Shown here: positions 14,039 through 52,131 of the stretch, piece after piece
Numbering within the stretch: the first letter of the stretch is position 1
Layout: each line of letters starts with the position of its first letter
NCBI GenBank assembly: GCA_017478025.1
Contig: JAFVGZ010000010.1
Coordinates: 1-53,062, forward strand
Length of the DNA: 53,062 nt
Direction: 5' to 3'
From: Prevotella sp.
GTDB taxonomy: Bacteria; Bacteroidota; Bacteroidia; Bacteroidales; Bacteroidaceae
Notes under the pieces: model-generated
Databases searched by the model: none
Seen by the model: only the letters and a program-made list of their open reading frames with translations
What the model was told of the DNA's origin: nothing
Position numbers and translations under genes: made by a program

Positions 14039-14068
14039 ATTGTATATTAAACGAGGTACCTAGTAAAT

Positions 14069-14103: not shown

Positions 14104-14105
14104 TG

Positions 14106-18263: not shown

Positions 18264-18267
18264 TGAT

Positions 18268-18336: not shown

Positions 18337-18385
18337 AACAGAACATGACAGAAACTTGAGTTACAACGAATCGAAAAAAAACAAA

Positions 18386-20412: not shown

Positions 20413-20454
20413 ATGAGCGAAACTTGAGTGACAACGAAGAGAAAGAAAAAAGAA

Positions 20455-21849: not shown

Positions 21850-21884
21850 GCCCCTCCCAACCTCCCCCTCAAGGGGAGAGGATA
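21850..21884. repeat. CC-rich inverted repeat
   Basis: GCCCCTCCCAACCTCCCC with AAGGGGAGAGG, directly after the stop of the third pilin gene and before the giant gene. It could act as an attenuating hairpin. Confidence 0.65.
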
Positions 21885-21921
21885 GAAATGTAACAAACGG
21901 AATAATGGAATAACGAAATAT

Positions 21922-29631: not shown

Positions 29632-29636
29632 TGACC

Positions 29637-29670
29637 TCACCCCCAGCCCCTCTCCAAAGGCGAGGGGAGT
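29637..29670. repeat. CC-rich inverted repeat
   Basis: CCCCAGCCCCTCTCC with GGCGAGGGGAG, between the giant gene and the next pilin gene. Such hairpins often trim or attenuate expression between operon genes. Confidence 0.6.
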
Positions 29671-29684
29671 AAAGAAGAAATACA

Positions 29685-31085
29685 ATGAAGATGAGAGATA
29701 TATATAATATAATAATGTACGCGTGCGTAGGGATGTTGCTGGCGGGCTGCTCGTCGGGCGATGAGATTGCTACGTCATCTAAACATGCGGCAAACTCTAA
29801 TGACGCCATAGGCTTTGCGACCAATCTCGATGACGATGTCACGGAGAGACAGGCCACCCGTGCCACTACAGGAGCCATCACGGACCTGAAGAAAGTCACG
29901 GAGGGCTTCGGAGTGATAGCATATCTGACAGACACACAAATGTGGAGTGAGGCCAAGAGCGGCATTGTCGATTATACCACATCAGGGAACTTTCCACGTC
30001 CTGACTTTATGAACAATCAGCCGGTGACATGGAACGGAACAGACAAGTATTGGACTTATTCGCCGATGAAGTATTGGCCTAACTCCACAGAGAACACCAC
30101 CAATCGCTACGTCTCATTCTTTGCCTACGCTCCTTTCGTAGAAGGGACGGTCATTAACGCTGAAACCGGAACGGGTGTGACGGGCATGACCTGGGAGAGT
30201 GACTTGCGGCCGCATGTCATCTATACCGTAGATGAGGAGGGAACGAATCCTGTTGACCTGCTGTGGGCAAACAAGATAGATGCTACGCGCAACGGACAGG
30301 GACTGATATACTATGAGAACTCTACAGAAAAGTGGCAGGCTGTGCCGCTGGAGTTCAAGCACGCCCTGTCGTGTGTGGAGGTATATGTGCAGCGTGTGTA
30401 TGATGAGCCGACATATTCGGGCAAGACGGCAGGCAAGGAGACAGACACGACGAAGATATTCATGCAAGAACTGAAGTTTACGTCTGTAAATACGGCCTCA
30501 AATGGTCTGTTTAGGAAGGGACGACTGGACTTGGAAACTGGTACGTGGGGCACCTACAGTGATAATATAATCGCAGATGTATGGGCTGCAGATGCAGGTG
30601 AATTGACCTTCCCCGCTTCTGCATTTGTGGACAGCATCGCCGGTACGCTCTCTGAGGAAGCAGCGGTTATTCGTAATGTGGAGTTGGAGAAGTGGGGTGA
30701 TAAGACCACTGGCGTTGACCAGGACTCGGTGAAACTGTTTAAGGCCGGAAGCATCATGCTCATTCCACAGGCGGGGGAGTTGACTATAACGCCAAGCATA
30801 AAGTATTCTATGGTGACCCGTGGCGAAGAGGGCGACATGGCCTTCAGTCCGCTCGTGGATGCTGCAGGCAATCATTACAGCCGCGTGCTTAACGAGGTGA
30901 AGGGTAATGACCTGAAGATGAAATTCCTCGCAGGAAAGCGATATAAACTGGTCATACGTATCGGTGTGGAACACGTGGTGTTCCAAGTGCTAAGTGTTGA
31001 AGACTGGGACTTCCCCATTCGTCTCACTCCCGAAGCATCAGACATGCCAGAGGAACCCATATCCCATAAACTGAATGAAGACTAA
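29685..31085 (+). CDS. Fimbrillin family lipoprotein
   Basis: 466 residues with lipoprotein signal GMLLAGC (C22). Fimbrillin marks: RQATRAT (R59), FGVIAYL, KYWPNSTE, SFFAYAPFVEG, PVDLLWANK, LEFKHALSCVEVYVQ, and at the end KRYKLVIRIGVEHVVFQVLSVEDW. The ATG at 29685 gives a signal of normal length; 29691 is an alternative. It begins 53 bases after the giant gene and ends 43 bases before the tip-like gene, so all three are probably co-transcribed. Confidence 0.9.
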   Translation: MKMRDIYNIIMYACVGMLLAGCSSGDEIATSSKHAANSNDAIGFATNLDDDVTERQATRATTGAITDLKKVTEGFGVIAYLTDTQMWSEAKSGIVDYTTSGNFPRPDFMNNQPVTWNGTDKYWTYSPMKYWPNSTENTTNRYVSFFAYAPFVEGTVINAETGTGVTGMTWESDLRPHVIYTVDEEGTNPVDLLWANKIDATRNGQGLIYYENSTEKWQAVPLEFKHALSCVEVYVQRVYDEPTYSGKTAGKETDTTKIFMQELKFTSVNTASNGLFRKGRLDLETGTWGTYSDNIIADVWAADAGELTFPASAFVDSIAGTLSEEAAVIRNVELEKWGDKTTGVDQDSVKLFKAGSIMLIPQAGELTITPSIKYSMVTRGEEGDMAFSPLVDAAGNHYSRVLNEVKGNDLKMKFLAGKRYKLVIRIGVEHVVFQVLSVEDWDFPIRLTPEASDMPEEPISHKLNED

Positions 31086-31128
31086 AGGTGGATTCTATTA
31101 ATTCCCACCGAATGTTTAACATTATTAT

Positions 31129-34603: not shown

Positions 34604-36436
34604 TTACCACTGGTCGGTGTACTGGTCGGTGTCGAAGATAGTTGTGATGCTCTCCGGTCCGCGAACGATGTCGTCGCCGGGGCGCAGGTCGTCGAGGATG
34701 CCGTAACAGTAGATGACACCGCTCCTCCACTCAATGTTCATCTTCAGCATGTTGATGGTAAGGCGGGCGGAGTATTCAACTTTTTCACTGCTACCAGACT
34801 TGGGCCCTTTGGCTGTGAGCACTATGTGGGGTACGTCATCATCGTCAAGTTCCTGAGGCACTACGAGCAGGATATTACTCTGCGCGAAGTTGTAGTATTT
34901 ATGTTTTACTGCGTCATAGTTCTTTTCTCCCAGGGTATATTGCAGGGCACCACCTCCTGCGGTATAGTCAGCCTGATCATCGAAGTAGCCAAACATGTAG
35001 TCATCGTTCAGGTAGTCGCGTTGCCCCTTGTCATTGAACCGGTACCAATAGGGGTTCATGATGTAATCGGTGACAGTGGCCGAACCAAGTGTGGAGGCTG
35101 GTTCGTAGCCGATGGTCGTTGGTGTGCCATAGACAGGGTAGAAGGTCGTAGTGGTCTTGATGTTATTGAACTCCAACTGGTAGGACAACATAGCGCGGCG
35201 TCGCTTGTGGTTGACATCCCATACCGCTGTGCGTTCCCAACGCTCACACTTAGACTCGTCGGGAATCTGATCGCCTACCTTCAGTTCTATCCATGTTCCA
35301 TATTGGTCCATGACTGCAGGTTTCAGATCACCATAGCCAGAGATGTTCTCGGCAGTCATCGTAACATCGTTTACTACATCACCAACTTGCAACCAACCAC
35401 CAACGGGGACAACACTTGATCGTCCATCAGATTTCCTGAAGTATTTCTTTGTGGCATTGTTCTCCAGATTCGTGTCGGTGAACTTGGTGTCATTCCATGT
35501 ATCGAGCATTTCTTGAGTAGCAGTTTCCTCAAGATACACCATTCGGTCGTTCCCTCGGATGTAGGCATAGATACGCACCTGTGCCAGCAAGTGGTGGAAA
35601 CGCAGAGGGACGGGCTTTGGTGTGTATGTGCCCTGCGGACCTTCTACGAGGGGATAGCCATCGCGGTTGCAGTTGACTACGGGCTCGCTAATCATAAAGT
35701 CGTTCTGGTTGGCTGCATCGGGCTGCATGGTGAACTTCACGCGTCCCATACCTGTACCTTCACCAACTTCGCTCGGTATTATGCTGATACCATAGTCACC
35801 AATCTCTGCTGTAGGGTTGTAGGGGTAGTATGCAAAGAATGTGCAGTACTCGTGACCGGTAGCAGGGTCGGGGAGTCTTGTATTGGGCCAGAAGCGCACC
35901 GGCTCGTAGGTCAGTGTGCCGTTCTCTCCGATAGTGGCCTTGGCATTATAGAGCAAATCGGGTGTGTAGTACTCCTTGAGAATCTTTGGCGCATCGGTCT
36001 GCAAAGTTGTTTCGCTATCGTAGCTATCAAAGTTGTCGGTTTCGGACTTGAGATAGGCTAATTCAGCAGAAGTAATGCTACCATCAGCCATCACACTGGA
36101 CAACATCACCAGCTCTTCCCAGGTGTATTTTCCCGTGTAACAACCGAATAGTCCGGCATAGAAGGTGCTGTTGGCTGTTGTGGGCAATTGGGTGTCGCCT
36201 AGTTTCACGATGGTTAAGTTAGCGCGGGTAGCTTGCTGACTTGGCACAACAGAGCCACTGAACGCAATACCGATGTTCTCTCCTGCCTTAGCATTTGAGC
36301 TGTCGGTACCTATGTCACTCTGGTCGGAGCAGGAAAAGAGCAATAGGAAGAGAAGAGTGAAGAGTGAAGAGTGAAGAATGTGCTTCCACACTCGTCGTGT
36401 TATTACTGTTATCATTGTTGTTGTTGCTGTCATCAT
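34604..36436 (-). CDS. Fimbrillin family lipoprotein paired with the 5188-aa protein
   Basis: 610 residues; lipobox LLLFSC (C36). Fimbrillin marks: QQATRAN (R71), FGCYTG, VRFWPNTR, CTFFAYYPYNP, NDFMISEPV, LRFHHLLAQVRIYAY. An insertion after FGCY (WEELVMLSSVMADGSITSAELAYLKSE, in parts) reads as two helices around a DG-x-I loop, similar to a degenerate EF-hand or TerB-like turn. Part of the signal peptide (ILHSSLFTLLF) is translated GAGTGAA repeat. The start lies one base after the stop of the giant gene, so translation is probably coupled; later Met codons (36433, 36415) are possible. Confidence 0.87.
   Translation of the reverse strand: MMTATTTMITVITRRVWKHILHSSLFTLLFLLLFSCSDQSDIGTDSSNAKAGENIGIAFSGSVVPSQQATRANLTIVKLGDTQLPTTANSTFYAGLFGCYTGKYTWEELVMLSSVMADGSITSAELAYLKSETDNFDSYDSETTLQTDAPKILKEYYTPDLLYNAKATIGENGTLTYEPVRFWPNTRLPDPATGHEYCTFFAYYPYNPTAEIGDYGISIIPSEVGEGTGMGRVKFTMQPDAANQNDFMISEPVVNCNRDGYPLVEGPQGTYTPKPVPLRFHHLLAQVRIYAYIRGNDRMVYLEETATQEMLDTWNDTKFTDTNLENNATKKYFRKSDGRSSVVPVGGWLQVGDVVNDVTMTAENISGYGDLKPAVMDQYGTWIELKVGDQIPDESKCERWERTAVWDVNHKRRRAMLSYQLEFNNIKTTTTFYPVYGTPTTIGYEPASTLGSATVTDYIMNPYWYRFNDKGQRDYLNDDYMFGYFDDQADYTAGGGALQYTLGEKNYDAVKHKYYNFAQSNILLVVPQELDDDDVPHIVLTAKGPKSGSSEKVEYSARLTINMLKMNIEWRSGVIYCYGILDDLRPGDDIVRGPESITTIFDTDQYTDQW
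36349..36380 (-). repeat. GAGTGAA repeat inside a signal peptide
   Basis: Four GAGTGAA units on the plus strand (AGAGTGAAGAGTGAAGAGTG onward) encode, on the minus strand, the HSSLF/TLLF hydrophobic run of the fimbrillin signal peptide. Related repeat at 12638-12670. Confidence 0.7.
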
Positions 36437-36437
36437 C

Positions 36438-39400
36438 TTACTTTATCGTTACTTTCTTATGTCCGAAGATATACACGCCCTTTGGCAGTCCCGGGTGGTT
36501 GTGACGCAGTGTCTCCGGAGTCTCATTCTCTGCTACGCGACGGCCCTGAAGGTCAAAGACATCGCATGGCCACGGCGTGGATTCATAGCTCTGATGGTTT
36601 TCCGGATTCTCTGGCTCAAGCTCCACACCATCAAAGAGAGCTATGATGTGCAGCTGCTTGGCTCCTTTGTTTTTCTTCGTATATGGGTAATATACCTTGT
36701 TATGATAGACGTAGAAGTTAGAGCGTTGTACATCAACGGCATTACGTGCTGTTGCCAGGAACGATGCTGCTGCTGTACCATCGTTGGTGGTCGGCTGATT
36801 GCCGCTTTCGCCGATGATGCTGCCTTCGCCGTATCCGCGCATCCAGTTCTCGTTAGTGTACCAGCCCACCTGCTTGGTAGTACGTGCATATTCGTGATGA
36901 GTATTGTCATGGTCAGCAAACGGCAATCCGAATACCATAATGGACTTGCCAGTAAGTGTATAACCGTCATCACCTTCTTTTGCTTTCATGTAGGTGTCAT
37001 CGAGCGTGCGCTCCAGATATTCGCCACGAAGCAGTATTGTCGCTTTCTCGTCATCCAGACCTGATATTGGTGTGACGTTAGGCAGATAGAGATTGACGTA
37101 GTAGCGTTTAGTATAGACCGATGCAGGGTTGCCCTGGTTCACCAGCGTGATGCTGTCCGGCAGGTTGGTGCGAATGACTACCGGCCATCCTGCAGGCACA
37201 AACTGCGGGTTACCCATACCGTTGAGCTGACTGACGGACTGCATGGTTACCGTTGTTGTGTTAGCTCTGGCTTCGTTGGTCAGAGTAAATGCAGCATCGG
37301 TGGTGTTTGACAGACGGGAGTCGAACGGCACATAGAGCGAGCCATAGTAGTTCTTGTCCTTGTTGTCCTCTGAGGTCAGGTCTGCACCAGTCAGGTCTTG
37401 ATCCTTTACACCGCCTTTTTGTACTTCTGCACGCAGTGGCATCTCGTTGTATGGCCATTCCTCCTTCATGCCCACGGGCTGCAGCAGCCACTTAGTGTCC
37501 TGGATACCGTTCAGTCCGTCGGTGGTATAGTGGTCGCCTATCTCTACCATCTCATTGTCAGTATGGCAGGTGATGCGGTAGCGGTGATGACCATCGATGC
37601 AGACGTAGTTGGTCTTCAGATTATTGGCTACGTCGGTGTCCCATGCCGAAGGCTCGCTGCTGAAGCTGCGTAGGGTCACTGCAGCACCGCCGATGTCGTC
37701 CAGGCGGAGTTCATTCTTAAATGCAATGAGTCCACCCTCTGTCGATGTCGGGTCAGCGGCAGCCAGCTCTGTTCTGCCGAACTTATGAGCATCAGCCACG
37801 CCCTCAGTGCCTCCAGGGCGAACCCATACGTCCAGTCCTTGAGTGGAGAGCTTGTAGCGGTCATAGCCTCCTGATGCGGTAAACAGGAAGACGCTCGACG
37901 GGTCGAAGTCTGCCGGCAGTATTTCGATGTTTCCGCGCATGGCAACATGGTCAAAGACGTCGCGGTCTTTCAGCTCAGCCTTCTCCTCTGGTGTTCTGTC
38001 GCTTTCTTCCACGGCAGTGTTCACAGCAACAATCTTCGCCTTCAGATCAGCGAAGGTGTGTATGTCACTATGTTTCATGTCTGTCTCGAAGAAGTGGAGC
38101 CAGCGTCCGCCATTGTTGTTGGCATCGTTCGGATCGGTCTTCTCACTATCAAAGCGGTAGCCGCTGATGTAGCGCGGACCGGTGATGCCTTTGATGCCTG
38201 TGCCCGACATGTCGTTGCCATCCACATTCAGTGCGTCCTCAGAGAAGGCCCTGATGCGGTAGTGACCATCGGCCATGCTTACAAGGTTGTTGGACACGAA
38301 CTGCAGTGGCAGTCCGTTATTTCCCGTTGTTGTCGGGCGTGCAGTGGTGTAGACAATCTCGGTATCACTATTATACGGGTAGAACTTACCTCCATATACC
38401 AGGTCTTGCAGCTTGGTCAGCTCTGCAAAGGTAAAGGTATCGCCGCTCTTCAGACGGTTGCGGTACTCCTGATTGGTGAAGTCCTGAGCAACGGTAGGTT
38501 TCAGGCCTCCCACGTAGCCGGCACGCTCAAAGTATGGCAGAAGCTGCTCTCTTGTACACTCCAGTCGCCAGTTGGCATCAGGCATGTAGCGCAGGTCGTC
38601 AGACTTGTATTTGCGCAGGTAGGCGCGATGGGCCTGGTAGTCACCATTGGCAGTGGTGTTGTGTACCATGTAGTAGCTCTCGTGGTCAACGTCTTTATTG
38701 TTCATCCATGCGGCCGTCGGGTGCATGAGGAATGAATCGTCGTAACCTCCGATGAACATCTCATAGACAGCATTGGTTGCGCCATCGGTCTGGGCTTTGT
38801 TCGATTCATCGTCACCGCCTTCCGGGTTAATCTTGTCGCCTGTGCGTCGGTGGATGATGCGCTTGTGGTCGAATGGGATGTTACTTGTCGATGACGAGCC
38901 GGTGTAGTAAGCCTTCGACTCGGCAACGGAAGGCTCATCGAAGGGTTCTTCTGCACCATCATCTGTTGACTTATAGATTGGGTTACCCCACGTGTCCTCA
39001 CCCTTTGGCAGCTTACCCTCGGTGGTCATAGCCACATCGTCAAAGCCTGTACCATTGATGGTAGCATAGCGTGAGCGCAGTACGAAGCCGTATGGGTCGC
39101 CTTCCGGTGCCCATAGGTAGTTGTTGGTGTAGTGGTGGGTGCGGTCCAGACGACCACCGATACCGTCCTTGTATGAGAAGTTCAGCAGACCGTCGGCAGT
39201 CTCGTTGTTAGTCATCATCTGGTACCACGCCGTGGTGTTGCGCCCTTTCTGTGCAAAGCGGAAGTTGTTGGTGTTCACCTCGTAGATGACATCGATAATA
39301 ACGCGGCGGTTCTTGTGACAGTCGTAGATCTTATCGAGTTCCACACCCTGCAGTTTCTCTGCCTGATCGTAGCCGCTTGGAATCTTGCGCCAAGTGCCGC

Positions 39401-42400
39401 TTACATTCTCCCAACCGGCTGCAGTTCTCTCACCATCAGTAGGTTTGGCTGCGAGGTCACTCTCACTAACTGCCGTCCAACTGCTCTTATCGAAGATACT
39501 TTCCCACTTCACGTTGAAGGCCTGCTTGGTGACACCGTTTTCTTCGAAGGTCATCGGAATGGGGTTGGTGCCGTCGTTTGACTTGAAGACCTGTCCGGCA
39601 TAATAGGCAACGAAGTTTGCGTCTGCAGTATAAGAATGTTTTTCGTAGTCCTTGTAGGTCTCGTTTAAAACGATGGTACAGGTCTGTCCTGTCCACTCGT
39701 CATCGGCTTGCTGGAATGACGGGTGTGCATTATCAACCACCGAGCGTTGTACGTCGCGCTGATACATGTGGTAGGTACAGAACTGTCGCTTCATGTACCA
39801 AGGTACCTGTGGCTTGTTATCCACACCGACTCTCTCTACGATGGCATCCTTTACTGGGTAGCTCAGGAAGTTTCGGAGTGTACCCTTCTGCTTTAGTAAG
39901 TCTTTAATGTCGTCTTCCTTATTGGTGTCGTATGTCTTAGGAGTCTGACCATCGGAATAATAAGTAGAGATGAAGTAGTCTTTGCTGCTATGTTCTTGGA
40001 TACCCCAGTATTTGAGGAATTCTAACATGCGCTCGTTAACTTCCCCCTTTTGTTCGCCCGACAGATGATCTAGTGTTTCTGTATCCAATGAATACTGGTG
40101 AGCCATGACGAGGTGGTAATCCACAATGTCGGCATAGCTCATGAGGTTGGTGAGATAGAACGGCTTGACAGTGGCAGTCTTTCCGCTACTGTTCACATAA
40201 GTTGTTGCCAGCGTGTTGCCGGTGGCATCGGCGGTGTTCACGCCATTGCCCACCGACATCAGCGTCTTGTTTGATGTACTGCTGAACTCGAAGTCCACCA
40301 GTTGGACGATGTTACCATAGGTAGGACTATCCGGATTGTTGTCGATGATGGCAAGGTAAGGCACGCCTTTCTTGTCAACGACGTAGGCGAACGTCTGGCC
40401 GTCACCATAGTTCTGTGTGATTACATCCGTTCCGCTCATGCTGACTATGACATCAGAATTGTTCAGGTACTGCGCATAGTTCTTCATGGTGAAGCCGTAT
40501 GGGTCGCCCGTCATGCTCCACTTCTGTTCGTTATCTGACTTCTGAACGGTCTGGTCGGCATATACCGGTGTCTGACTGGTGTGTGTATTCAGATAGCCCT
40601 TGGTAGGATATGGTGTCGTCGGGTTGTTCACCACTTCGGTATAGCTTTCTTCACGCCATACCTCATCGATAATCTTTCCTTCTGAGTTATATACATAATG
40701 GTCGAATACCTGTCTGGTTTTCTCTACCTCCACGCTGGATCCTGAATATTTCTGCTCCCAATAGAAGTAGGAGTTAGCCCAGGTATAGTCTTCGGTGCGT
40801 GCATCTTGCGGCGTGGTGAAGAACTGCGATGTGGCATCATCGACGGTATAGACGTATGTCAGCAGCGGAAGTTTTCCTGCCGCAGCAGCTGTTGTCATCG
40901 CGTTATGCAGTTCCTCATAGCCTTCTTCATTCACCAGTTCGCCGAAGTTAGTGACTTCCGTTCCGCTGTTGGTGGCCGGGTCGTAGTTCAGGTAGCACTT
41001 GTAGGAGCATCCATAGCGTCGCAGTGATGCAGGCAATGCTTTCTCTATATTGCCGTAGCGTATCTCCATATCGCTCTTCTTGAGCTTCAGCACACCGTTC
41101 AGGGTGCGTATCTCCACGTCGGCATCAAAGCAGTTATTGTCGGCATCGTCCTCGTCCTTGGCCACGGCGGTGCGTATCTCCAGACGCTGCTGATAGACAC
41201 CCATGCCGTTCATGGTCTTCGAGTAGTTGTTCATGTACTGCGTATTGGAGTAGTTGCTCTTTTCCGCAAGGCTGTAAGGCACCATCTCGAAATAGCTCGT
41301 GGCGGTTGCAGCATCGGGGTATGGCTTGTGAACGAGTCGCCAATAGTTGGAGGTCTGGTTGGTGGCAGAGCCGTTGACTCCATCGTCAGTGCTCGTCTTC
41401 AGCGATGCTGTGCGCAGGAAGTAGTTGGCATCGGCATTGCCGGTCTTGTAAGTGCCGTCGCCATTCTTGGGCGACAGTTTCCACATCTGTACGCTGAAGT
41501 GGGTATTGACGGTGTTATCAGCAATGCTAGATGCTGCAGTTGCTGCGGCATGAGCCACGGTCGGAACATCGGCATTGTAGTCGGCCAGCTGCGATACCCA
41601 TATCACGGAGTCTGCGGTATTGGCATTGTTGCGTACACTGGTCTTCTTCACTTGCAGCCACTGTGCCTCACTATTGCTGCCGTCTTCGTAGCGTCGACGA
41701 TTGAGAATAGTGAAGTCATACGGATCACCCACGAAGGCCCAGTGCAATCCCTTCAGACCGTCGTTCCATCCGTCAGCTGTGTTGTCGCCGATGGCTGTGC
41801 GATAGTTCGTGACCTCGGTGTCGGCGCCTCCGGTCTTATCAAAGAAGAGCCAGTTGGTGCCGTTGCCTAATACCGCCATATCTACCCAGTTCAGGGTGCT
41901 GGTATTGTGCGAGAAGAGATGGGCATCGTTGCCTGCCTCGTCCTTCGACAGGTCATCTACGGTATAATAGACAGTGAACTTAAAGACAGGGTCTATTTTT
42001 GTGCCAGTCTTAAATACATTGCCGGTGTGGGCAGAGCAATCGCTTGAACTGGAGGCTTTGGTTATGCTCAACTCGTGTTCACTCTCCGCGCTGCCGTCCT
42101 TGTCGGTGAGGGCGGAATAGTGTACGAACTTGCGCTGCAGGTGGCGTGGCACCTCAGTAAGGGTCTCGTTCAGTCCGTAGTATTCCGAGAGTTCTTCCTT
42201 TACAACATTGGGTTTTGCATCATAGCGGTTGTCGGCTTCGCGGTTGGCAGTGACATATACCTTCACGGGTTGTACCAGCTTGATGATGGTATTCACATCG
42301 TTGGCGGTGTGATAACCAGCGTATGTACCCGTCTCATGTTGCTCGTTGTCGGGATTGTAGCTCAGGTTGATACTATAGTTCTTCTTCTGGTAGACTTTGC

Positions 42401-45400
42401 TCAGGCCGTCGTGTGCCAGGTAATAATAGACGTTACGGTAACCCAACAGCTGATTGTCCTCCTTAAAGCGCAGGGCAAAGGTTCCTTCCTGATTGCTCGT
42501 AGTGGGTACGCACTCCCAATAGAAGTCATTGAAGTATGGCTTGTTGTAGTGGCGATTGTGGTAGCCTTCTGCCGATGTGTCCTCTACACCGTTCTCATTA
42601 TATGGGTAGAGGGTTTCACGGAGATCAGTTATCGACTCGTCTTTCACACGCAGGTGTACACAGTCTATGGCAAACTGGAAGTTACTCTCCACGGGGTTGA
42701 AGCGTGCCAGCTGGGCGCCGTGTGCTCCCGCCACATTATATACCTGTACCCTATACGGGTCGCCCACGAAGTACCATTTCAGGTTCTGTGGCACAGACTC
42801 CATTCGGTTGTGATTAGTGCGATACTGGTAATTGTTATACCAGTTGTCGGTATCGTCCACGAACGCGCCGGTGCCACCATTTGCTGTGCTGTCCCACTTT
42901 CTCTTCTCTGGTCTTGCCGCACCGGTGTGGGTGTCGCGCTGGGTCTTCAGGTCACCGGTCTTCTCGCGCATGGTGCTCGTCGGATCGTAGTAGGCGTGAT
43001 GGTAGGTGTCTTTGCCCGATGTGTCAGGGAAGTCCATGAAATAGACGTGGTCGTTGTTCTGAGCCATTGTGGCTACTTGCTCCGCTGTCGGTGCAGTCTT
43101 AAGGAAGATGTCGCTCGTCACCTCATACTTCACGTAGATAGCCTGTGCTCCGGAAGTTACCTTGTTGCCATCCTTATCGTAGTATTCATATATCTGATGA
43201 CCGTCCTCGTCGAAGACTCCTTCTTCCGGTTTAGAGTAATCCGGGTAGGGGCCAGCCTGTACCGTGTATATGGTATTATCATGTTCAAAGACATCACTAT
43301 ACATGGTGTAATTGCAGAAGGCACGACGAACCTGTAGAGGCAGTGCATCCTTTTCGCTGGTGTTTATCTCGTCACCTTCCATGTACTTGCGCTCTGAAGC
43401 AGAGAAGTAGAGCTTCGAGATACCTGTGGTCATATTGTTATTAGCGTACTCGATTTTCTGTGCATCTGTTTTTCCATCTTTCCATGAGTTATATGTGGCC
43501 ACATCATCATCGCGTCGTATGACTACCTTCACATCCTCATAGCGCTGAGGGGCATAGGGGAGTAGCTGGATGGCATAGCTGCGGTCTGGAATGTAGTCGA
43601 GCATTCCTTCTACGCTTTCGGTAGTGACGCGGTTTGCGGTGTGGCTCACCATGTGCCAGTAGAGCGGCAGGCTTACCTCCTCGTTGTCAAGAGTCTCGGT
43701 GATGGCTGTAGAGAGCAGACTGAATGTCTGTTCTTTGCTGTTGTTTACTCCTACGCAGAGACCCCAGTACTGGTTCTCGGTAGGCTCCTCAGTAGGAATG
43801 GTAACAGGATAAGTATCATCACCACTTGTCGTAGTACCCTTGTTGATGGTGACGTAGCAGTTGTCAGCAGCAGCCAGTGAGTAAACACCGGAGCTCTCTG
43901 CCTTTACACCTACGGCGGACTCTAAGTTGATGATACGCATATTGTATGGATCATCGCCTACGAAAGTCCACAGCCAGCGTCCCTCGCGGAATGCATCGTT
44001 GTCGCCTTTGCGATATGACTCCGCCAGTCGGTCGTACGACCAGCCCTTGTAGTTATCTACACTCTCCTTGTGCAGGGTGTAGTTGTTGTTCATCCAGTTT
44101 ATGGTGCCATTGTCCTCGCGGCGCAGGAACAGCTGCCTGCCGACGGGAGTGCGAGTAGTACCATTTACTGTGGTAGTGATGCCCTCGTCGGTGTCAAGCA
44201 CCATGTAGAACCACTTGGCCTGCTGAGTGTAGCCAGGCTCTAACCGTCGGCCATTGGCCTCTTTTATCTCTTTATCTGCATTGTCTGTGTAATCTTGGTT
44301 ATTGTAGTGCGCTACATCGGCAGATATCTGTTCTGTAGTACTCGTTATCTGGCTAAGTGTCTTAGCTGAACCCGCCAGATTCAGCGTGGCCTCGTTATCC
44401 ACCTGATATTTGAAGTAGATGGGATATACCTCCTCGAGGCCAATTTCTGGATAGATGTCATATTTACCGCTTTTTGTATCTTTTACACGCATGCTGAGGC
44501 CCGGATCACTATAGAACTGTGCGTTGGGCTTTTCGCCTTTTTCCTCCAGATCTGCCTGAGTCTGGAAATCGTCAGTACCTGTCACATTATCACCCGTGGC
44601 AGCGGTGTTACGCGCCTCATACTTACAGTATCGTCGTGCGATGATGGGTTCCAATACCACATCCTGCAGCCAGTCGTGCTCCATGATGGCATTCCATGTC
44701 TCGCCGATACGCGTAGAGCCTTCATACTTGATAGCATGATAGTGGTACTTACGGGTGACGGGAGCTTTTACAAATTCTGTTAAAAAGAGAGTTGTGCTGC
44801 CACTTCCCATATTGATGACTTTGCGCGTTACCACTTCGTCGCCAGACATGCGGATGTCGCATTCGGAGTAGCTCTTCAGGTCGAAGGGCCAGTCGCTGCT
44901 GGAGTTCAGGTTGCTACCGTCTGGGGTACTTCTCATAAACCTTTTGGTTCCAGTTCCTATCAGCACGGTCCAACGTTTAAGCAGGTAGTCCGCATGGCGG
45001 CTTGGGCTATTGTCGATGGCATAGGCGCTGAGTAGCATAAAGGTTTGGCAGACACCTGTATTATTATCCTGCATGTACTGGTGGTAGTTCGTACTGCTAT
45101 AGTCAACAAATGTCATGTACTTGGAGTCATAGTTTGCATTGGAAATCTTGATGGCGTACGGGTCGTCGCCCTCCAGTTTCCAAAGATACTCCTTCTGTGA
45201 CGGTGCACGTCCGTTGGTTAGATCGGTGATGTTGATCTTCTGGAATTTGATTGTGCTATCTTCCTCCTTTGTGCCTAATACGGTACCGTGGGCTGTGTCG
45301 AAGCCCTGTAGCATATTGGCAATGGTGTACCACGTCTTGCCACTGAGGTCGAGTCCTTTCTCGTCAATCCAACTCAGGCGGGTGCCGTCCTCGGCAGCAT

Positions 45401-48400
45401 CGTTGATGTTAGTGGCAATCTTGAAGGGGCTTGTGTCGCGGTTGTAGGTGTAGCGTACATAGATATCACCAATCTTCTCTTTGACCATAGAGGCAATCGT
45501 GGTGCTCGCTGGCGCCTTGATAGTATCGGAGGACACGGAGGACACCGTGTATATTCCGTCTGTCTCAGTCGCCTTGGTGATATAGATAAAGTCGCTGCTG
45601 TTGAGTAATGGCGACTGATAGACTTCAGGCATCTCTACCGTAGCGTCAGACAGTAGAGAATAACCCTCGAGGGCCTCCTTCTTGCTGTTGGTGATGATGT
45701 GGTAGGTCAGCACAGGGCGGTAGGTAAAGCGGCTGAATACTTTATATTCACTTCCTGTTCTCTCGGGTTCGCCTTCAGGGTCATTATAACGCGTCTTATA
45801 GGGCTCGGAGTCTTTGAATACATAGAGTCCGCCGGTGCTGGCATTAGTCTTTAACTGTGCTTTTCCCACAGCATTACTCTCTGCTACCCACAGGTCATCG
45901 TGGCCGGTGAAATAAAGTTTTAGCTTACCGGGGTTGTTGCTTTCCTGCTCGTTATGCCTCAGCACCATGAATGTGGAGTAGTAGCCGTTAGTGCTGGCAA
46001 CTGCCTGTGTGCACAACTTTGCTAATGGATAGTCAGTGGAAGGGTCTGCGGATGCGACATGGTCTTCCCCCCACCACTTGCCGGCGATAATCTTGTCGCC
46101 ATTGTGGATGGTACATTCGTATGGGTCGTTACCGGTAATAGTCCAGACACAACTCTCTGATGTCAGTTTGTTGTCGGTTATGATGATGTCTGTTGGATTG
46201 ACGTAGTCAGTCGAATTGAGTTTGGCAACTTCCAGCCTCTTTCCGTATTCGTAATGTTTGCTTTTATTATTCTCACCACCTATGGTCAGCACATATTTTA
46301 CTTTTCCGCTGAGGTCGAGTGGGGCTACGTTGAGTGGCAGTTCCGTTCCAAGAATACCGAAGTCGGAAATGGCCTTCTTTGACTTCTCGTAGTCGTAGCG
46401 CACATAGACATCACTTCCGTCGAGGGTGGTAGGCGAGGTGGTAGGCACGCCCTTTACGTCATAGGTGCCGTCGGGTCTGAGTGTGACTGCCGAATGGAAT
46501 ACGTAGGCATCGCTCTCCATAAGCGGAGTCTTCATCCATTCGGGCATTACGTCGGCCAAGTTGGTGTCTTTTGTGATATGAGTGACCACATCGCTGACCA
46601 GTGCTTCCTTGCCGTTGCCAGTGATAAGATGGAAGGTGACGCTGTTGACTATGGATACTTTTTCTACAAGCGTCAGCTTCTTCGTGTCACCGCTGATGGT
46701 GCCGCTGGTGATGTAACCACTCTGCTCTACGAAGTCCGCATGATCACTGCTACCATCGAGGAAGTAGTATTTCGTTGTTGACTGTTCTGGATTGCCTGCC
46801 TCCATAAGGGCGTAACTGCGGTTCTCGTCGGTATAGTCGCTATGGTGGAAGACAATATATCGTTTGCCGTCTGTCTTTTGTGTTTCTTCTCCGTTCCATA
46901 GGGTGACGGCGTACGGGTCTGGCTCGTCACCGGCACTCTTCTTAAAGCGCACGTGGTGGGCTGCATCATCTTCATATTCTTCCTTGGTAATACCGCCAGT
47001 GGTCACCTTTATATCGCTGGCATTCAGCTGGGCATGATACCATGTACCGTAAAGCAACTGGTCTTTATCGGCATCGGGGTTATACTGATAGCGTACATAG
47101 ATGGTCGCATCATCAGCCACACTGTTTGCAGAGAACGAACCGGTAATCAGGTTGCTTTCGTTGATGGTATATATTCCTGCACTTTCTGATGCAGCCTTGT
47201 AGAATGAGAAATTTTCTGCTAATGGGCTGCGGTATTTGGCAGGGATGGTGGGTGCACCGTCGCTCAATGCAGTGTAGCGCAGCGCCTCACGACCATCGTT
47301 ATCCACCACGATATATATATGAGCAGGTGGGCGCAGCAGCCAGGTACTCTGCCCGTGGGTCTTGTCGTCTTCGGGCTGGTCGTCAGCCCATACCTCAAGT
47401 TTTATGTCGTTAGACTCTTTCTCTGTCTCAATTGCATTATAGTGGTCAAAACGCGGCATCAGACGCATGTTGCCTTTGGCATCGCTAACCGCCATGAACG
47501 TCTGGTTGGTCATGTGCAGGTTGACGTCGTCATGTCCTTTACCGTTATTAACCGACGTGTTGACATCCCGATGAGAATTCAATGCCACGTTAGTATCGGT
47601 AAACGTGGCCTTCATGGCATTGGTTTCATCAAGGCGGGAGTAACTGGCGTTGGTGGTGAAGTATTTTCCAGTCGACTGGTTGTATATCTGGATGTTATAT
47701 GGATCGAAGCCTGCTCTGTCGGTTTTGTAGTAGGCAATTCTAGTCTCCGTTTCGGTTCTGGGTAAATGCAGACCGTCAGATGTGTTGTTGACGTCTTCAT
47801 CTTCCTTGCCGGTGTTGGTTTCGTCAGCATACACATAGCCCATCTCTTTATCGATATTCCAGTTGGGTGCTAAGTACCAATAGTAGTTGTCGCCGAGACC
47901 GTTCAATGGCTGGCCTGTATCAATTTTTGTAATGTTTTCGGCTGTGTCGTCTGCAGCCAACGTACCGCTTTTGTCGTATGCCAGTTTGCTGTCTTGGCGA
48001 ATAATGAATGTTTTGCCTGGGGCAACAGCTCCTGACACGCTCGTAACCTTGTCGCCTTCCTTGGTAGCTGTGACATTGTAGAGCTCCAAATATTCTGGCT
48101 TTACGTCGTATGTGACATATAAGTCGGAGACATTGCCGTTGTTGTTGAGCACTTCGGGATAATCACCCAGTGAAGAGCCTGTGCCCTTCTCTGTTTCCCA
48201 ATTGGTGTATTTATGATATCCAGATGTCTTGGTGGCTGTGGTCCAGAAGTGGTAGGTCTTCACCATAGGACTGTCGAACTGACGGATGGCGGCATCGCGA
48301 GTGGCTTTGTTGGCATCGCCGGTCTTTGCCATAGGCTTGCGCATGATTTCCCATCCATGGTTGTCAAGGAGAATCATAATGCCATCGATGGAGTGCTCTA

Positions 48401-51400
48401 CCAAATTAAATGTCTCGTCAAGGCTGATTTTCTGATAGTAGTGGTAGGTGTACTCGTATTTCTTGGACAATGAGGAGTCTGGTTTTGCTGTGTAGATTGG
48501 GCGGGCATTTTGCCAGGCCTGGAAACGATACATAGGATGGGCATCCACGTTTGCAACAGAGAAGTAGCTATATGTGTTATCTTTTTGAGACTGGAACTCA
48601 TCCCATTTAAGGGCTGTACCGTCCTTAGGTTTGACACCCTTGCGGCTGATGGTCTCCCATGTTTTCCAGTATTGCAGGAAGTCCTTGACAGGACGATGCT
48701 TACCGTATGTAGCATGATCTGCCACTCCCGTAATCTCGTTGACCGTCACCAGCTTATAGTGGCCTGTGGTACCCAATAGCATATACTCTGTGGGAACGTT
48801 TGAAGCAGAACCTCCTGTTTTTGATTCATCCGACACCTGGGGGTCATCGGAAATAGTAGCGGTGACAATAGACCCGCCAGTTCCTATTTCACTGTTATAG
48901 TAGGTGCGCCAGTAGTTGTAAAACGAAGTGCTCACATCATCGCCACTCAATTTTCGAGTGTTACAATTTTGCCACGAGGTGATAAGCACACGGTATGGGT
49001 CGTTGGTCTGACTCACCACATACCACGACCAACGGGTACGGGTGGAAGAGCCACCTACCCTGTCTTCATCCCATTTGGTATCACCATACAAGTTAAAACC
49101 GCTGTCACCGTTGGAGTATGGATAGATGGCTTTCATCGGTTCTTTACGAAGACTGTCTCCTCTCTCTTGATAGATCGCATCACCATCGGCGAACTTAATC
49201 ATGAATATCTGTCCCCAACGGTTTTCGTAATCGCGCACAAAAGCTCCTGTCGCACTACCATTTTGGTGTACCCTTGCAGTGGGATCTACCTGAGTGATGA
49301 TATTGTTGTCGGCAACGTCGTAGGTGACGTAGATGTAGCCGTCTGCTACTTCGGCTATATTAGAGACTTCTGTTTGACCACCCTTTAGACGGTACGTACC
49401 GCCTGCCTCAATGAAGTTACTCCTCTTCCAGTAGTGGTAGGCGCTGACCAACGGACTCTTCCAAGTGTCACTGAGGTTAGGAGTGCCGGTAGCATCCTTC
49501 TGCTCGTATTCGACAACGATTTTCCCCTGCTTGTCGATGATACGGTAATAGATCGTCGTAGAGGCGTCGGCAAAGACCACCTGCTGTGCGTCGGCTTTCC
49601 TTTCAGTACTGGCATTGGTAAGGCTGGAGCCGTCGTAGTTCAGACTCAGGCTTGCTACGGGAGTTGTTGCCAAGGGACTGATGTCCTCTCCTGATGCCAG
49701 GATGAGTTCTACCTGCTGACCGTTGTTAGGGTCAGAACCCTTCATCAGGATGTAGTGGATATCAGTACCGTTGTTGGCAGGAAGGTAGTAATCCCCCTCA
49801 AAGGCTTTGTGTATGCTGACATTGTATGGGTCGGAATTGACGACCTTCCATACGAATTTCTTAAGTTTGTCTTCGTAACCTTCAGAACCGCGGGCAGGAA
49901 GTCCTTCTTCAAAGCCGATTGCGCTGTTTTCGTATTTTACATATTTACTGCCTACCTTGACGGAGAGGTTGCTGTTGCCGTCTAAAGACAGCGAGCGTGT
50001 GGACAGCAGATTGGTGGTGTAGTGCACGTAGATGTTGGCATCGGAGGCGGGGGTAGTCGTTATGATGTGTGCTGGGGCCAAGTCCGAATTATTAAAGAAC
50101 GTCAGCGTCTCGCCTTCGAGGTACGGGCTGTAGATGTCCTCAGGCAGAGCCTTGTGGCCGTGATCGCCATCAAGGCGGGTGGAGGCATACTGTTTGACGG
50201 TGTATTGGATAGCGGTGCGCCCCGAGTTGTCAACGATGACGTAGGTGTATTTGTACTTTGGCGTCTGGGTTATCGTAATGTTGTGACCGTCCTGTACCTC
50301 ACCGGAAGCGACCTTGTTGTCAGTATAGAGCCGGATTTGGTTACCACCATCAATAGCATCAAAGAATTCGCGGAAGATATTTTTGAATGCCAGGTCGCGG
50401 CGGAAAATCTGGATAGCACTAGTGGTCTTGGCACCTGATATCATGGCAAAAGAGGCGTAGGTGTCTTCGGGTGAGGCGCTGAAGCGTACGTTGCCGACTG
50501 TACTCTTGAAACCGCAGGCTTCAGTAGAATCCTGGAAGGCATATTGTCCGTCAAGGTCTTTACAGATGATGCGGAACGAGTAGGGGTCGCCGATAAAGGC
50601 AAACTGCGCACGGGTGTCTGTAGCGGGCTTGTCCGCAGTCTCGTCTGAGCGGGAGTCGATGACGTTCTTGTCCCTGTCATAGAAAAACATACGACCGCCA
50701 CCGGAGTTGATTTTCATGCTGAACCATACAGGATTCTCTTCGGTGCTGAAGGTGATATTGGCATCCGTCAGTTCCTCGGTTTCTTCGACTGTGCTGTTAA
50801 AGGTGTATGGCACATATACGTCTGTCACCGCCCAAGGAGCCGTCGTGAGAGGTGTCGTGCAAGCAAGGTCGCTGTAATAGCCGGTTGACAGGGTGCAGCC
50901 CAGACGCTTCAGTCGATTCCTGTGAAATACTGACATCCCCGGGGCAGCTTTCTCTGTAGATGTGCTGAAACGCATGACTTCCGCATGCGAAGGACTGACG
51001 ATATGGAAGGTGACAGGCACTGCTTCTGAGGTTGAGATGCTAATTGTTTTTAGGTCTAAGTTGCCACTACCCGTCACGAATAAACGGCTACCAATATCTC
51101 CGTAATTGGTTTTGCCGTTTTTATAGAGATATATATATTTGTTGGTGTTACTTTCCCACCTATAAGTATTGCCGGCAGCGACAGTGTGACCACTGTTGTC
51201 AAAGAAGAAAGTGTTGAAGAGCTTGGTGGTGGTTTTTCCGGCATAACGTATGTTGTTATTGTCTGCAAAGCTTCCTTTGGCCAGGTCGGAGCGCAAGAAA
51301 TAGCCTGTTGGGGCATTAGCATTGGGATTGTCTTTTGCAAGTTGCTTTCTGAGGGCTTCTTTTTCGCTGTCTGTAAGATCATCGCGATTGCTGATGGCCT

Positions 51401-52004
51401 GAAGTGTATCCCGGACAAAGACGTTGCCGATGTAGATTTTGTAAGGGTCATCGCCCTCATAGAACCACTGGCGCTTTTTGTCGTTGTCGTTAAAGTTGTC
51501 GTCAGTGTTTGTGGAACCGTCCACGCGCCAGTCGCCAGAACCATATTTTTGGTTGAATGTCAGGTAGTGTACTTGCGAGGCGTTGTTGGGATTGCTGTCT
51601 TTGATGTAATAGATGGTATTACCCGACAGGTCGATGGGCGACGATGCATTGTCGTAGTCGTAGGTCACATAGATGGTGGCAGTGCTCGTCGGTAGCTCCG
51701 TCAGCTCGCTTGCTCCATCATTTACTGTATAGGTGGTTCCACTTTGAGTCACGTCGCCAGCGGCCCAGTAGTGGTAATTGCCTTCGGAGACCAGCCTGTT
51801 CTTGATGACGTCTGGGATGGCGGGGTGCTGGTGCTCGCCCGCCGCCTGTGTGGCTCTGGCCTGTGTGGCTATCTCGCCGCTAAGGTTAATCACGATATAG
51901 GTGTATTGGTAGTTGGCACCCAATGCCACATTGATGACACTGCCCAAAAGCAGCAGTAAAACGATAGATGAAAACCTTTTCAGTTGTATCTTCATATTCT
52001 TCAT
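36438..52004 (-). CDS. Giant secreted repeat-module protein (5188 aa), T9SS-type tail
   Basis: Signal peptide (SSIVLLLLLGS, cut near ALGA, residue 30). Residues 30 to about 4400 are built of at least 13 related modules of 250-470 residues. Each has, in order, a Y-x-Y-x-I-I-x-x-x-G segment, a SPL...Y-x-F/W segment, IYVxYxY, often DLSGK-x-x-Y, and a W-x-x-x-GDDPY-x-x-x-I-x-N motif. The DPY motifs are near residues 188, 475, 726, 1004, 1435, 1698, 1962, 2283, 2687, 3084, 3429, 3835 and 4305. Modules are diverged, not recent copies. The last 350 residues hold FVPAGWPVVI and a type A sorting-like tail (VFDLQGRRVAEN, GVYIFGHKKVTIK). It should be exported by T9SS and sit on the surface. I recognise no family for the module. 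M4 (51995) is an alternative start. Fimbrillin gene follows by one base. Confidence 0.88.
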   Translation of the reverse strand: MKNMKIQLKRFSSIVLLLLLGSVINVALGANYQYTYIVINLSGEIATQARATQAAGEHQHPAIPDVIKNRLVSEGNYHYWAAGDVTQSGTTYTVNDGASELTELPTSTATIYVTYDYDNASSPIDLSGNTIYYIKDSNPNNASQVHYLTFNQKYGSGDWRVDGSTNTDDNFNDNDKKRQWFYEGDDPYKIYIGNVFVRDTLQAISNRDDLTDSEKEALRKQLAKDNPNANAPTGYFLRSDLAKGSFADNNNIRYAGKTTTKLFNTFFFDNSGHTVAAGNTYRWESNTNKYIYLYKNGKTNYGDIGSRLFVTGSGNLDLKTISISTSEAVPVTFHIVSPSHAEVMRFSTSTEKAAPGMSVFHRNRLKRLGCTLSTGYYSDLACTTPLTTAPWAVTDVYVPYTFNSTVEETEELTDANITFSTEENPVWFSMKINSGGGRMFFYDRDKNVIDSRSDETADKPATDTRAQFAFIGDPYSFRIICKDLDGQYAFQDSTEACGFKSTVGNVRFSASPEDTYASFAMISGAKTTSAIQIFRRDLAFKNIFREFFDAIDGGNQIRLYTDNKVASGEVQDGHNITITQTPKYKYTYVIVDNSGRTAIQYTVKQYASTRLDGDHGHKALPEDIYSPYLEGETLTFFNNSDLAPAHIITTTPASDANIYVHYTTNLLSTRSLSLDGNSNLSVKVGSKYVKYENSAIGFEEGLPARGSEGYEDKLKKFVWKVVNSDPYNVSIHKAFEGDYYLPANNGTDIHYILMKGSDPNNGQQVELILASGEDISPLATTPVASLSLNYDGSSLTNASTERKADAQQVVFADASTTIYYRIIDKQGKIVVEYEQKDATGTPNLSDTWKSPLVSAYHYWKRSNFIEAGGTYRLKGGQTEVSNIAEVADGYIYVTYDVADNNIITQVDPTARVHQNGSATGAFVRDYENRWGQIFMIKFADGDAIYQERGDSLRKEPMKAIYPYSNGDSGFNLYGDTKWDEDRVGGSSTRTRWSWYVVSQTNDPYRVLITSWQNCNTRKLSGDDVSTSFYNYWRTYYNSEIGTGGSIVTATISDDPQVSDESKTGGSASNVPTEYMLLGTTGHYKLVTVNEITGVADHATYGKHRPVKDFLQYWKTWETISRKGVKPKDGTALKWDEFQSQKDNTYSYFSVANVDAHPMYRFQAWQNARPIYTAKPDSSLSKKYEYTYHYYQKISLDETFNLVEHSIDGIMILLDNHGWEIMRKPMAKTGDANKATRDAAIRQFDSPMVKTYHFWTTATKTSGYHKYTNWETEKGTGSSLGDYPEVLNNNGNVSDLYVTYDVKPEYLELYNVTATKEGDKVTSVSGAVAPGKTFIIRQDSKLAYDKSGTLAADDTAENITKIDTGQPLNGLGDNYYWYLAPNWNIDKEMGYVYADETNTGKEDEDVNNTSDGLHLPRTETETRIAYYKTDRAGFDPYNIQIYNQSTGKYFTTNASYSRLDETNAMKATFTDTNVALNSHRDVNTSVNNGKGHDDVNLHMTNQTFMAVSDAKGNMRLMPRFDHYNAIETEKESNDIKLEVWADDQPEDDKTHGQSTWLLRPPAHIYIVVDNDGREALRYTALSDGAPTIPAKYRSPLAENFSFYKAASESAGIYTINESNLITGSFSANSVADDATIYVRYQYNPDADKDQLLYGTWYHAQLNASDIKVTTGGITKEEYEDDAAHHVRFKKSAGDEPDPYAVTLWNGEETQKTDGKRYIVFHHSDYTDENRSYALMEAGNPEQSTTKYYFLDGSSDHADFVEQSGYITSGTISGDTKKLTLVEKVSIVNSVTFHLITGNGKEALVSDVVTHITKDTNLADVMPEWMKTPLMESDAYVFHSAVTLRPDGTYDVKGVPTTSPTTLDGSDVYVRYDYEKSKKAISDFGILGTELPLNVAPLDLSGKVKYVLTIGGENNKSKHYEYGKRLEVAKLNSTDYVNPTDIIITDNKLTSESCVWTITGNDPYECTIHNGDKIIAGKWWGEDHVASADPSTDYPLAKLCTQAVASTNGYYSTFMVLRHNEQESNNPGKLKLYFTGHDDLWVAESNAVGKAQLKTNASTGGLYVFKDSEPYKTRYNDPEGEPERTGSEYKVFSRFTYRPVLTYHIITNSKKEALEGYSLLSDATVEMPEVYQSPLLNSSDFIYITKATETDGIYTVSSVSSDTIKAPASTTIASMVKEKIGDIYVRYTYNRDTSPFKIATNINDAAEDGTRLSWIDEKGLDLSGKTWYTIANMLQGFDTAHGTVLGTKEEDSTIKFQKINITDLTNGRAPSQKEYLWKLEGDDPYAIKISNANYDSKYMTFVDYSSTNYHQYMQDNNTGVCQTFMLLSAYAIDNSPSRHADYLLKRWTVLIGTGTKRFMRSTPDGSNLNSSSDWPFDLKSYSECDIRMSGDEVVTRKVINMGSGSTTLFLTEFVKAPVTRKYHYHAIKYEGSTRIGETWNAIMEHDWLQDVVLEPIIARRYCKYEARNTAATGDNVTGTDDFQTQADLEEKGEKPNAQFYSDPGLSMRVKDTKSGKYDIYPEIGLEEVYPIYFKYQVDNEATLNLAGSAKTLSQITSTTEQISADVAHYNNQDYTDNADKEIKEANGRRLEPGYTQQAKWFYMVLDTDEGITTTVNGTTRTPVGRQLFLRREDNGTINWMNNNYTLHKESVDNYKGWSYDRLAESYRKGDNDAFREGRWLWTFVGDDPYNMRIINLESAVGVKAESSGVYSLAAADNCYVTINKGTTTSGDDTYPVTIPTEEPTENQYWGLCVGVNNSKEQTFSLLSTAITETLDNEEVSLPLYWHMVSHTANRVTTESVEGMLDYIPDRSYAIQLLPYAPQRYEDVKVVIRRDDDVATYNSWKDGKTDAQKIEYANNNMTTGISKLYFSASERKYMEGDEINTSEKDALPLQVRRAFCNYTMYSDVFEHDNTIYTVQAGPYPDYSKPEEGVFDEDGHQIYEYYDKDGNKVTSGAQAIYVKYEVTSDIFLKTAPTAEQVATMAQNNDHVYFMDFPDTSGKDTYHHAYYDPTSTMREKTGDLKTQRDTHTGAARPEKRKWDSTANGGTGAFVDDTDNWYNNYQYRTNHNRMESVPQNLKWYFVGDPYRVQVYNVAGAHGAQLARFNPVESNFQFAIDCVHLRVKDESITDLRETLYPYNENGVEDTSAEGYHNRHYNKPYFNDFYWECVPTTSNQEGTFALRFKEDNQLLGYRNVYYYLAHDGLSKVYQKKNYSINLSYNPDNEQHETGTYAGYHTANDVNTIIKLVQPVKVYVTANREADNRYDAKPNVVKEELSEYYGLNETLTEVPRHLQRKFVHYSALTDKDGSAESEHELSITKASSSSDCSAHTGNVFKTGTKIDPVFKFTVYYTVDDLSKDEAGNDAHLFSHNTSTLNWVDMAVLGNGTNWLFFDKTGGADTEVTNYRTAIGDNTADGWNDGLKGLHWAFVGDPYDFTILNRRRYEDGSNSEAQWLQVKKTSVRNNANTADSVIWVSQLADYNADVPTVAHAAATAASSIADNTVNTHFSVQMWKLSPKNGDGTYKTGNADANYFLRTASLKTSTDDGVNGSATNQTSNYWRLVHKPYPDAATATSYFEMVPYSLAEKSNYSNTQYMNNYSKTMNGMGVYQQRLEIRTAVAKDEDDADNNCFDADVEIRTLNGVLKLKKSDMEIRYGNIEKALPASLRRYGCSYKCYLNYDPATNSGTEVTNFGELVNEEGYEELHNAMTTAAAAGKLPLLTYVYTVDDATSQFFTTPQDARTEDYTWANSYFYWEQKYSGSSVEVEKTRQVFDHYVYNSEGKIIDEVWREESYTEVVNNPTTPYPTKGYLNTHTSQTPVYADQTVQKSDNEQKWSMTGDPYGFTMKNYAQYLNNSDVIVSMSGTDVITQNYGDGQTFAYVVDKKGVPYLAIIDNNPDSPTYGNIVQLVDFEFSSTSNKTLMSVGNGVNTADATGNTLATTYVNSSGKTATVKPFYLTNLMSYADIVDYHLVMAHQYSLDTETLDHLSGEQKGEVNERMLEFLKYWGIQEHSSKDYFISTYYSDGQTPKTYDTNKEDDIKDLLKQKGTLRNFLSYPVKDAIVERVGVDNKPQVPWYMKRQFCTYHMYQRDVQRSVVDNAHPSFQQADDEWTGQTCTIVLNETYKDYEKHSYTADANFVAYYAGQVFKSNDGTNPIPMTFEENGVTKQAFNVKWESIFDKSSWTAVSESDLAAKPTDGERTAAGWENVSGTWRKIPSGYDQAEKLQGVELDKIYDCHKNRRVIIDVIYEVNTNNFRFAQKGRNTTAWYQMMTNNETADGLLNFSYKDGIGGRLDRTHHYTNNYLWAPEGDPYGFVLRSRYATINGTGFDDVAMTTEGKLPKGEDTWGNPIYKSTDDGAEEPFDEPSVAESKAYYTGSSSTSNIPFDHKRIIHRRTGDKINPEGGDDESNKAQTDGATNAVYEMFIGGYDDSFLMHPTAAWMNNKDVDHESYYMVHNTTANGDYQAHRAYLRKYKSDDLRYMPDANWRLECTREQLLPYFERAGYVGGLKPTVAQDFTNQEYRNRLKSGDTFTFAELTKLQDLVYGGKFYPYNSDTEIVYTTARPTTTGNNGLPLQFVSNNLVSMADGHYRIRAFSEDALNVDGNDMSGTGIKGITGPRYISGYRFDSEKTDPNDANNNGGRWLHFFETDMKHSDIHTFADLKAKIVAVNTAVEESDRTPEEKAELKDRDVFDHVAMRGNIEILPADFDPSSVFLFTASGGYDRYKLSTQGLDVWVRPGGTEGVADAHKFGRTELAAADPTSTEGGLIAFKNELRLDDIGGAAVTLRSFSSEPSAWDTDVANNLKTNYVCIDGHHRYRITCHTDNEMVEIGDHYTTDGLNGIQDTKWLLQPVGMKEEWPYNEMPLRAEVQKGGVKDQDLTGADLTSEDNKDKNYYGSLYVPFDSRLSNTTDAAFTLTNEARANTTTVTMQSVSQLNGMGNPQFVPAGWPVVIRTNLPDSITLVNQGNPASVYTKRYYVNLYLPNVTPISGLDDEKATILLRGEYLERTLDDTYMKAKEGDDGYTLTGKSIMVFGLPFADHDNTHHEYARTTKQVGWYTNENWMRGYGEGSIIGESGNQPTTNDGTAAASFLATARNAVDVQRSNFYVYHNKVYYPYTKKNKGAKQLHIIALFDGVELEPENPENHQSYESTPWPCDVFDLQGRRVAENETPETLRHNHPGLPKGVYIFGHKKVTIK

Positions 52005-52100: not shown

Positions 52101-52131
52101 CAAAAATACTCCTTTTCCTTAATATAGCAAA
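52101..52131 (-). promoter_or_regulatory. Promoter of the giant-protein operon
   Basis: Minus-strand TTTG (52131-52128), 19 bases, TATTTTTG (52108-52101): full match to the Bacteroidetes consensus. The leader of about 90 bases contains GCGCTCGCGCGC-type GC-rich palindromic sequence near 52067-52085 that could fold. Confidence 0.8.

Follow-up and report, generated by a model that had tools for sequence, protein, structure and literature searches.

A giant Prevotella protein of two alternating domains and its fimbrillin-like neighbour

Contig JAFVGZ010000010.1 of Prevotella sp. (GCA_017478025.1), analysed here as a window of 53,062 nucleotides (nt), carries an open reading frame (ORF) for a protein of 5188 amino acids (aa), and the question raised by this locus is what so large a protein is built of and what it is used for. 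The original prediction, made from the DNA alone, had described it as a surface protein consisting of one repeated module; the ORF proved to be intact on the minus strand, with an ATG start and no internal stops. The analysis points to a fold that is already known, newly arranged on a giant scale and paired with a specific partner, a fimbrillin-like protein encoded next to it; the giant probably attaches the cell to sugars found on plants, in mucus or on other microbes. The partner, a paralogue in the same genome and a family of similar giants are additions to what had been predicted.

The repeats were examined through their most constant motif, DPY, which occurs exactly 13 times in the window protein at a spacing of 252-469 residues, compared with a mean of 1.08 and a maximum of 7 in shuffled sequences of the same composition (n = 2000). 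A first profile of the DPY domain, trained on relatives but not on the window protein, its paralogue or loci L027-L029 (close relatives such as L033 were kept), recognized the same 13 places and no others, with the consensus YLWAFVGDPYNLKIYNRATGKYLGTNA; eight of them scored at least 17.5 bits and the weakest 0.6, 1.9, 2.3, 5.6 and 7.2 bits, the top score in 100 shuffles being 2.8 bits. When 14 near relatives were also left out, the resulting stricter profile (68 training proteins) recovered the same places, eleven at 7.1-29.5 bits, DPY 1696 at 1.5 and DPY 186 at 0.2, so that 12 of the 13 exceeded all of 100 shuffles (top, 1.2 bits). These data confirm the anticipated minimum of 13 copies some 250-470 residues apart. 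Self-BLASTP of the giant gave no repeat pair at E ≤ 0.01; a recent tandem expansion was rejected for this reason, and the copies are diverged, in line with the proposal of an old, insert-tolerant module. The repetition is real, old and family-wide. The ordered motif set attributed to every copy was overstated, since DPY is present in all 13 modules but DLSG[KN] only in modules 1, 7 and 8, SP[LYM] at its place in the upstream domain only in modules 3, 4, 5, 6 and 8, and the IYVxY motif is lost beyond module 10.

What had been taken for a single module corresponds to two alternating domains, here termed A and B, B being the one that contains DPY. The profile of A covers the 84 positions before each DPY domain (YTYHIIDNSGKEALR...LPEAIKSPLVETYKYYK...GTYTL...IYVTYDYD) and, with the window protein in the training set, matched modules 1 and 3-8 of that protein at E < 0.01, module 2 at E 0.2 and none of modules 9-13. 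Among 90 family proteins, 454 of 512 A matches were directly followed by B at a median distance of 160 residues (417 of 473 once duplicates had been removed). The two profiles thus resolve the earlier motif set into a union of A motifs (YxYxII...G, SPL...Y and IYVxY) and B motifs (DLSGK and W...GDDPY). By profile-profile comparison modules 1-8 are one family, because modules 1-7 reached probabilities of 92.8-99.8 against module 8. The corresponding values for modules 9-13 were 86.7, 17.1, 30.0, 6.8 and 7.3, and against module 5 as reference 11 of the 12 modules remained below 80. Modules 9-13 are conserved among relatives without clear overall similarity to modules 1-8, to which they are joined through the DPY motif and weak structural evidence. 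In 14 aligned sequences, module 10 (aa 2778-3230, window 42315-43673) shows the near-invariant stretches NNDHVYFMDF, LKWYFVGDPY and YRNVYYYLAHDG.

The statement that the module belongs to no recognizable family holds at the level of sequence but not at that of the fold. Scans of both halves of the giant with Pfam and NCBIfam gave sub-threshold matches (aRib, E 0.1; tRNA_bind_2, E 0.13; TIGR04183, E 0.003) and none above cut-off, and no PDB sequence matched the profile of the best-conserved core at E ≤ 1. The B domain of module 5 was predicted to be a beta-trefoil, a fold that fills its list of structure matches; ranked by Z, the best of these include many lectins and carbohydrate-binding domains, with designed trefoils and FGF also listed. 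The expectation of a beta fold that often binds carbohydrate is supported by the prediction for this domain. A beta-trefoil is suggested by the model for the B domain of module 4, and no more than suggested because it appears only in rows with a root-mean-square deviation (rmsd) of 17-19 Å. The giant differs from the ricin-type, HA33, CBM13 and CBM42 beta-trefoils in having no sequence family match and no triple QxW, and in alternating its putative trefoils with a second domain along a chain of 13. As the QxW triple is missing and none of 50 core members has a ricin-type Pfam match, we did not file it as a ricin-type (CBM13) member. According to a low-confidence model, the A domain may be a small beta-grasp-like spacer. 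MucBP and InlB B-repeats are beta-grasp spacers of Gram-positive adhesins; neither family was found in a Pfam scan of 25 A domains at E ≤ 10.

Several other matches were set aside: Pfam strays in the 50 core members (12 families, none in more than one member, lowest E 0.0032), a PDB sequence match to domain A at E 0.76 that was taken as chance, BatD in one of two long relatives (Pfam E 0.0041, below cut-off), and the best Foldseek row for the core, 2vsa (E 5.8e-6), with an rmsd of 26 over 768 columns. The model of modules 10 and 11 (pLDDT 51.1) was not used as proof.

Regarding export, the N-terminus of the giant is hydrophobic by eye, and its C-terminus resembles the sorting domain of the type IX secretion system (T9SS), as had been proposed, but scored 21.4 bits with TIGR04183, below the 23-bit cut-off. 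At E ≤ 0.01, the same profile recognized 33 of the 45 tails taken from the family. The genome itself contains the T9SS translocon (SprA, TIGR04189, at 2476.7 bits) and nine further TIGR04183 places outside the giant. A surface location for the giant, like its fibre, adhesin and glycan-binding roles, is inferred.

The giant is not alone. Its own genome contains a paralogue (locus L005; contig C4, 35578-46383), an open frame of 3602 codons with seven DPY and one DVY, which adjoins an upstream fimbrillin ending in FTEQW. One scan of genome contigs gave 166 pattern matches and 119 relatives, of which the best 80 were used. The record titles of 79 of these 80 name Prevotella, Prevotellaceae, Bacteroidaceae, Paludibacteraceae or Bacteroidales and the remaining one 'uncultured bacterium'; a ruminant or foregut organ appears in 35 of the 80, and another host in none of the titles as listed. 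With the own genome counted each time, the core profile was found at genus level in 53 of 398 genomes (E ≤ 1e-20), at family level in 15 of 399, which represent 5 of 30 genera (E ≤ 1e-10), and at phylum level in 1 of 395 (E ≤ 1e-5), absence being soft because many genomes are incomplete. Core-bearing genomes assembled into one or two contigs are also present in the set (G370 and G290). The longest core-bearing frames have 8346 and 8468 codons. Searches of the open-access (PMC) literature, which covered the openings of abstracts, brought up no description of the family. A long class of nine loci (L063, L066, L074, L085, L087, L088, L089, L099 and L103) has A-B pairs, three of them detected, and directly upstream an ORF of 2.5-2.9 thousand aa (kaa), mostly overlapping, with a T9SS-like end; in L063 the pairs are followed by [FY]GGG, repeated 39 times within the 4601 aa read. 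The core ORFs of seven other loci (L048, L061, L076, L082, L083, L100 and L102) end without a T9SS-like tail and may be split genes or have a different architecture; in L048 such a tail closes the ORF that comes next (2499 aa).

The association with fimbrillins was then considered locus by locus. In the window, 1 nt separates the stop of the giant from the start of the partner (TAA G ATG). Homologues of this partner were present in 10 of the 16 relatives' genomes queried and all ten end in TDQW; eight lie directly behind a giant on the same strand, one is on the opposite strand, and for the last the stretch read contains no giant. A fimbrillin-like gene ending in [YF]T(V)EQW is the immediate upstream neighbour in 25 of the 80 loci, at most 133 nt from the giant frame except in L104 (380 nt), and in L041 a fimbrillin-like gene ending in AEQW lies downstream. 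A QW-ending fimbrillin thus neighbours 34 of the 80 sampled giants; for the other 46 the locus was cut, the neighbour was not examined or it was unrelated. Within six genomes, 7 of 18 PF13149 (Mfa_like_1) matches are QW-ended, precisely the seven that adjoin giants. Five of these genomes had been chosen for having a QW-ended neighbour, so the informative result is the absence of a QW end from all 11 other matches.

The partners match PF13149 and differ from ordinary members in ending at the last Trp (T-D/E-Q-W-COOH). By eye, five ordinary fimbrillins continue for 10-25 residues past a similar last strand and its Trp (VEDW, VDDW), and a sixth (C4, 497 codons) extends far beyond it; the QW end was consequently not retained as a new motif, the comparison suggesting that it is the Trp normally found in the last strand, without the extension. 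In 16 of 27 loci, four of which are those of the query genomes, the QW gene has an ordinary fimbrillin upstream. In Porphyromonas gingivalis, Mfa1 lacking either terminal strand region did not polymerize, although the authors warn that the truncated protein may be misfolded (PMC5954841). In our view, a fimbrillin ending at the last-strand Trp would be unable to donate a strand.

On balance, we hold it somewhat probable that the giant is a T9SS-exported, multi-lectin-like surface adhesin of about 13 A (beta-grasp-like) plus B (beta-trefoil) units that works with the adjacent fimbrillin-like protein. A signal peptide would be followed by T9SS export, presumably through the SprA-type translocon encoded in the genome; the QW-ended fimbrillin would lack the C-terminal donor strand and be a terminal subunit, either tip adaptor or anchor; the giant may dock on it as Mfa5 joins Mfa1 fimbriae; and the trefoil array would attach with high avidity to the glycans of adjacent cells, mucin or plant fibre. 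Tentatively, and with clearly less confidence, we propose a hybrid appendage in ruminant-gut Prevotella relatives, with an ordinary fimbrillin type V stalk, a T-D/E-Q-W fimbrillin cap whose QW is the docking signal, and a docked T9SS-exported lectin chain of 3-5 kaa, the giants being interchangeable on a shared pilin base.

It is also possible, though we doubt it, that the giant stands free as a T9SS surface adhesin or fibre, for which its own tail would serve as anchor, the fimbrillin being co-regulated without contact. T9SS tails alone do anchor proteins, and unrelated neighbours are common: 26 of 50 scanned upstream genes are not PF13149, and the long class follows its 2.5-2.9 kaa ORF instead. 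Against such independence stand the occurrence of the fimbrillin-like neighbour in two arrangements, upstream and downstream, the restriction of the QW end to the giant-adjoining copy in the six genomes, and the 1-nt junction in the window.

As for the ligand, sugar binding is in our judgement the likeliest role of trefoil arrays. Two points weigh against it: trefoils also bind proteins, FGF and IL-18 being among the structure matches of the core, and the whole giant has five QxW without the three repeats of ricin lectins. Both would suit a structural or protective surface layer, or a SprB-like gliding adhesin, with trefoils for protein-protein or stalk use, as would modules 9-13, conserved among relatives yet unlike 1-8. 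We regard this as improbable given the many lectins and carbohydrate-binding domains among the best Z matches (designed trefoils and FGF notwithstanding), with a weak hint from the pectate lyase, GH2 and CBM77 genes near the locus. A contact-dependent effector or toxin on a giant shaft, which the size and a neighbour readable as an immunity partner might evoke, was rejected as very improbable, as Pfam and NCBIfam scans of the giant found no toxin domain, its C-terminus is a T9SS-like tail and the partner is fimbrillin-like.

The adhesin reading finds its closest parallel in Mfa5 of the P. gingivalis Mfa1 fimbriae, a large T9SS-exported protein linked to fimbrillin genes and placed at a type V pilus tip; for the giant such export is presumed, and fimbrillin linkage is seen in part of its family. 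Mfa5, of about 1200 aa, has VWA and Ig-like domains, whereas the giant consists of 5188 aa of A-B modules, in which a Pfam scan at E ≤ 1 found no VWA domain. The rumen is rich in Prevotella relatives, whose means of attachment to fibre, mucus or other microbes are, in our judgement, poorly understood. The family offers a concrete, testable candidate, with very large adhesin-like genes, a defined partner and a short end sequence that marks the pair. According to PMC7835359, no Mfa fimbrial protein other than Mfa5 has a T9SS signal, and Mfa5 is located at the fimbrial tip; this arrangement of T9SS adhesin and type V fimbrillin may be a wider Bacteroidales design.

Table 1. Features of the giant gene and its surroundings in the window (module edges placed by hand)
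Feature	Position	Strand	Remarks
Giant gene	36438..52004	-	5188 aa ORF
Putative signal peptide, aa 1-29	51918..52004	-	by eye
Module 1	51024..51917	-	A at aa 34-118; DPY 186 (weak with the stricter profile)
Module 2	50259..51023	-	A at E 0.2 only; DPY 473
Module 3	49563..50258	-	DPY 725
Module 4	48393..49562	-	DPY 1002; in best-conserved core
Module 5	47328..48392	-	DPY 1434; in core; B domain about 47325-48017, predicted beta-trefoil
Module 6	46650..47327	-	DPY 1696 (weak with the stricter profile)
Module 7	45720..46649	-	DPY 1960
Module 8	44766..45719	-	DPY 2281
Module 9	43674..44765	-	DPY 2685; diverged
Module 10	42324..43673	-	DPY 3082; unlike 1-8, well conserved among relatives
Module 11	41190..42323	-	DPY 3427; low-confidence model: beta-grasp then beta-trefoil resemblance
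Module 12	40134..41189	-	DPY 3834; diverged
Module 13	38586..40133	-	DPY 4303; diverged
C-terminal region without DPY	36561..38585	-	
T9SS type A sorting-like tail, last 40 aa	36441..36560	-	below family cut-off
Promoter-like TTTG-N19-TATTTTTG	52101..52131	-	pattern match only; taken to be promoter-like from the Bacteroidetes consensus
Fimbrillin-like partner (PF13149)	34604..36436	-	610 aa, ends DTDQYTDQW; PF13149 30.3 bits, cut-off 27
Fimbrillin-like gene (PF13149)	29685..31085	+	25 aa beyond last-strand Trp; nearby, membership in giant's unit not shown
2569-aa ORF	21922-29631	+	T9SS-like tail by eye (GIYIRNGKKYLVK)
473-aa protein	20428-21849	+	fimbrillin-like in appearance, no Pfam match
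CBM77 protein	18356-20269	+	
Fimbrillin-like gene	16695-18263	+	
Glutamine synthetase III	14106-16292		
GH2	10772-13927		
Pectate lyase	8423-10579		

A second surface cluster (window 16695-34326, plus strand) converges on the giant (Table 1), and the pectate lyase, GH2 and glutamine synthetase III genes (window 8423-16292) are close to it. The cluster includes a 1065-aa ORF; the genome search matched the N-terminal part of this ORF to PF13149, but the Pfam scan did not. YhcG-type PDDEXK nuclease genes flank the giants of L027, L055 and L070 (by Pfam for two and by BLAST cluster for the third) and are probably chance neighbours.
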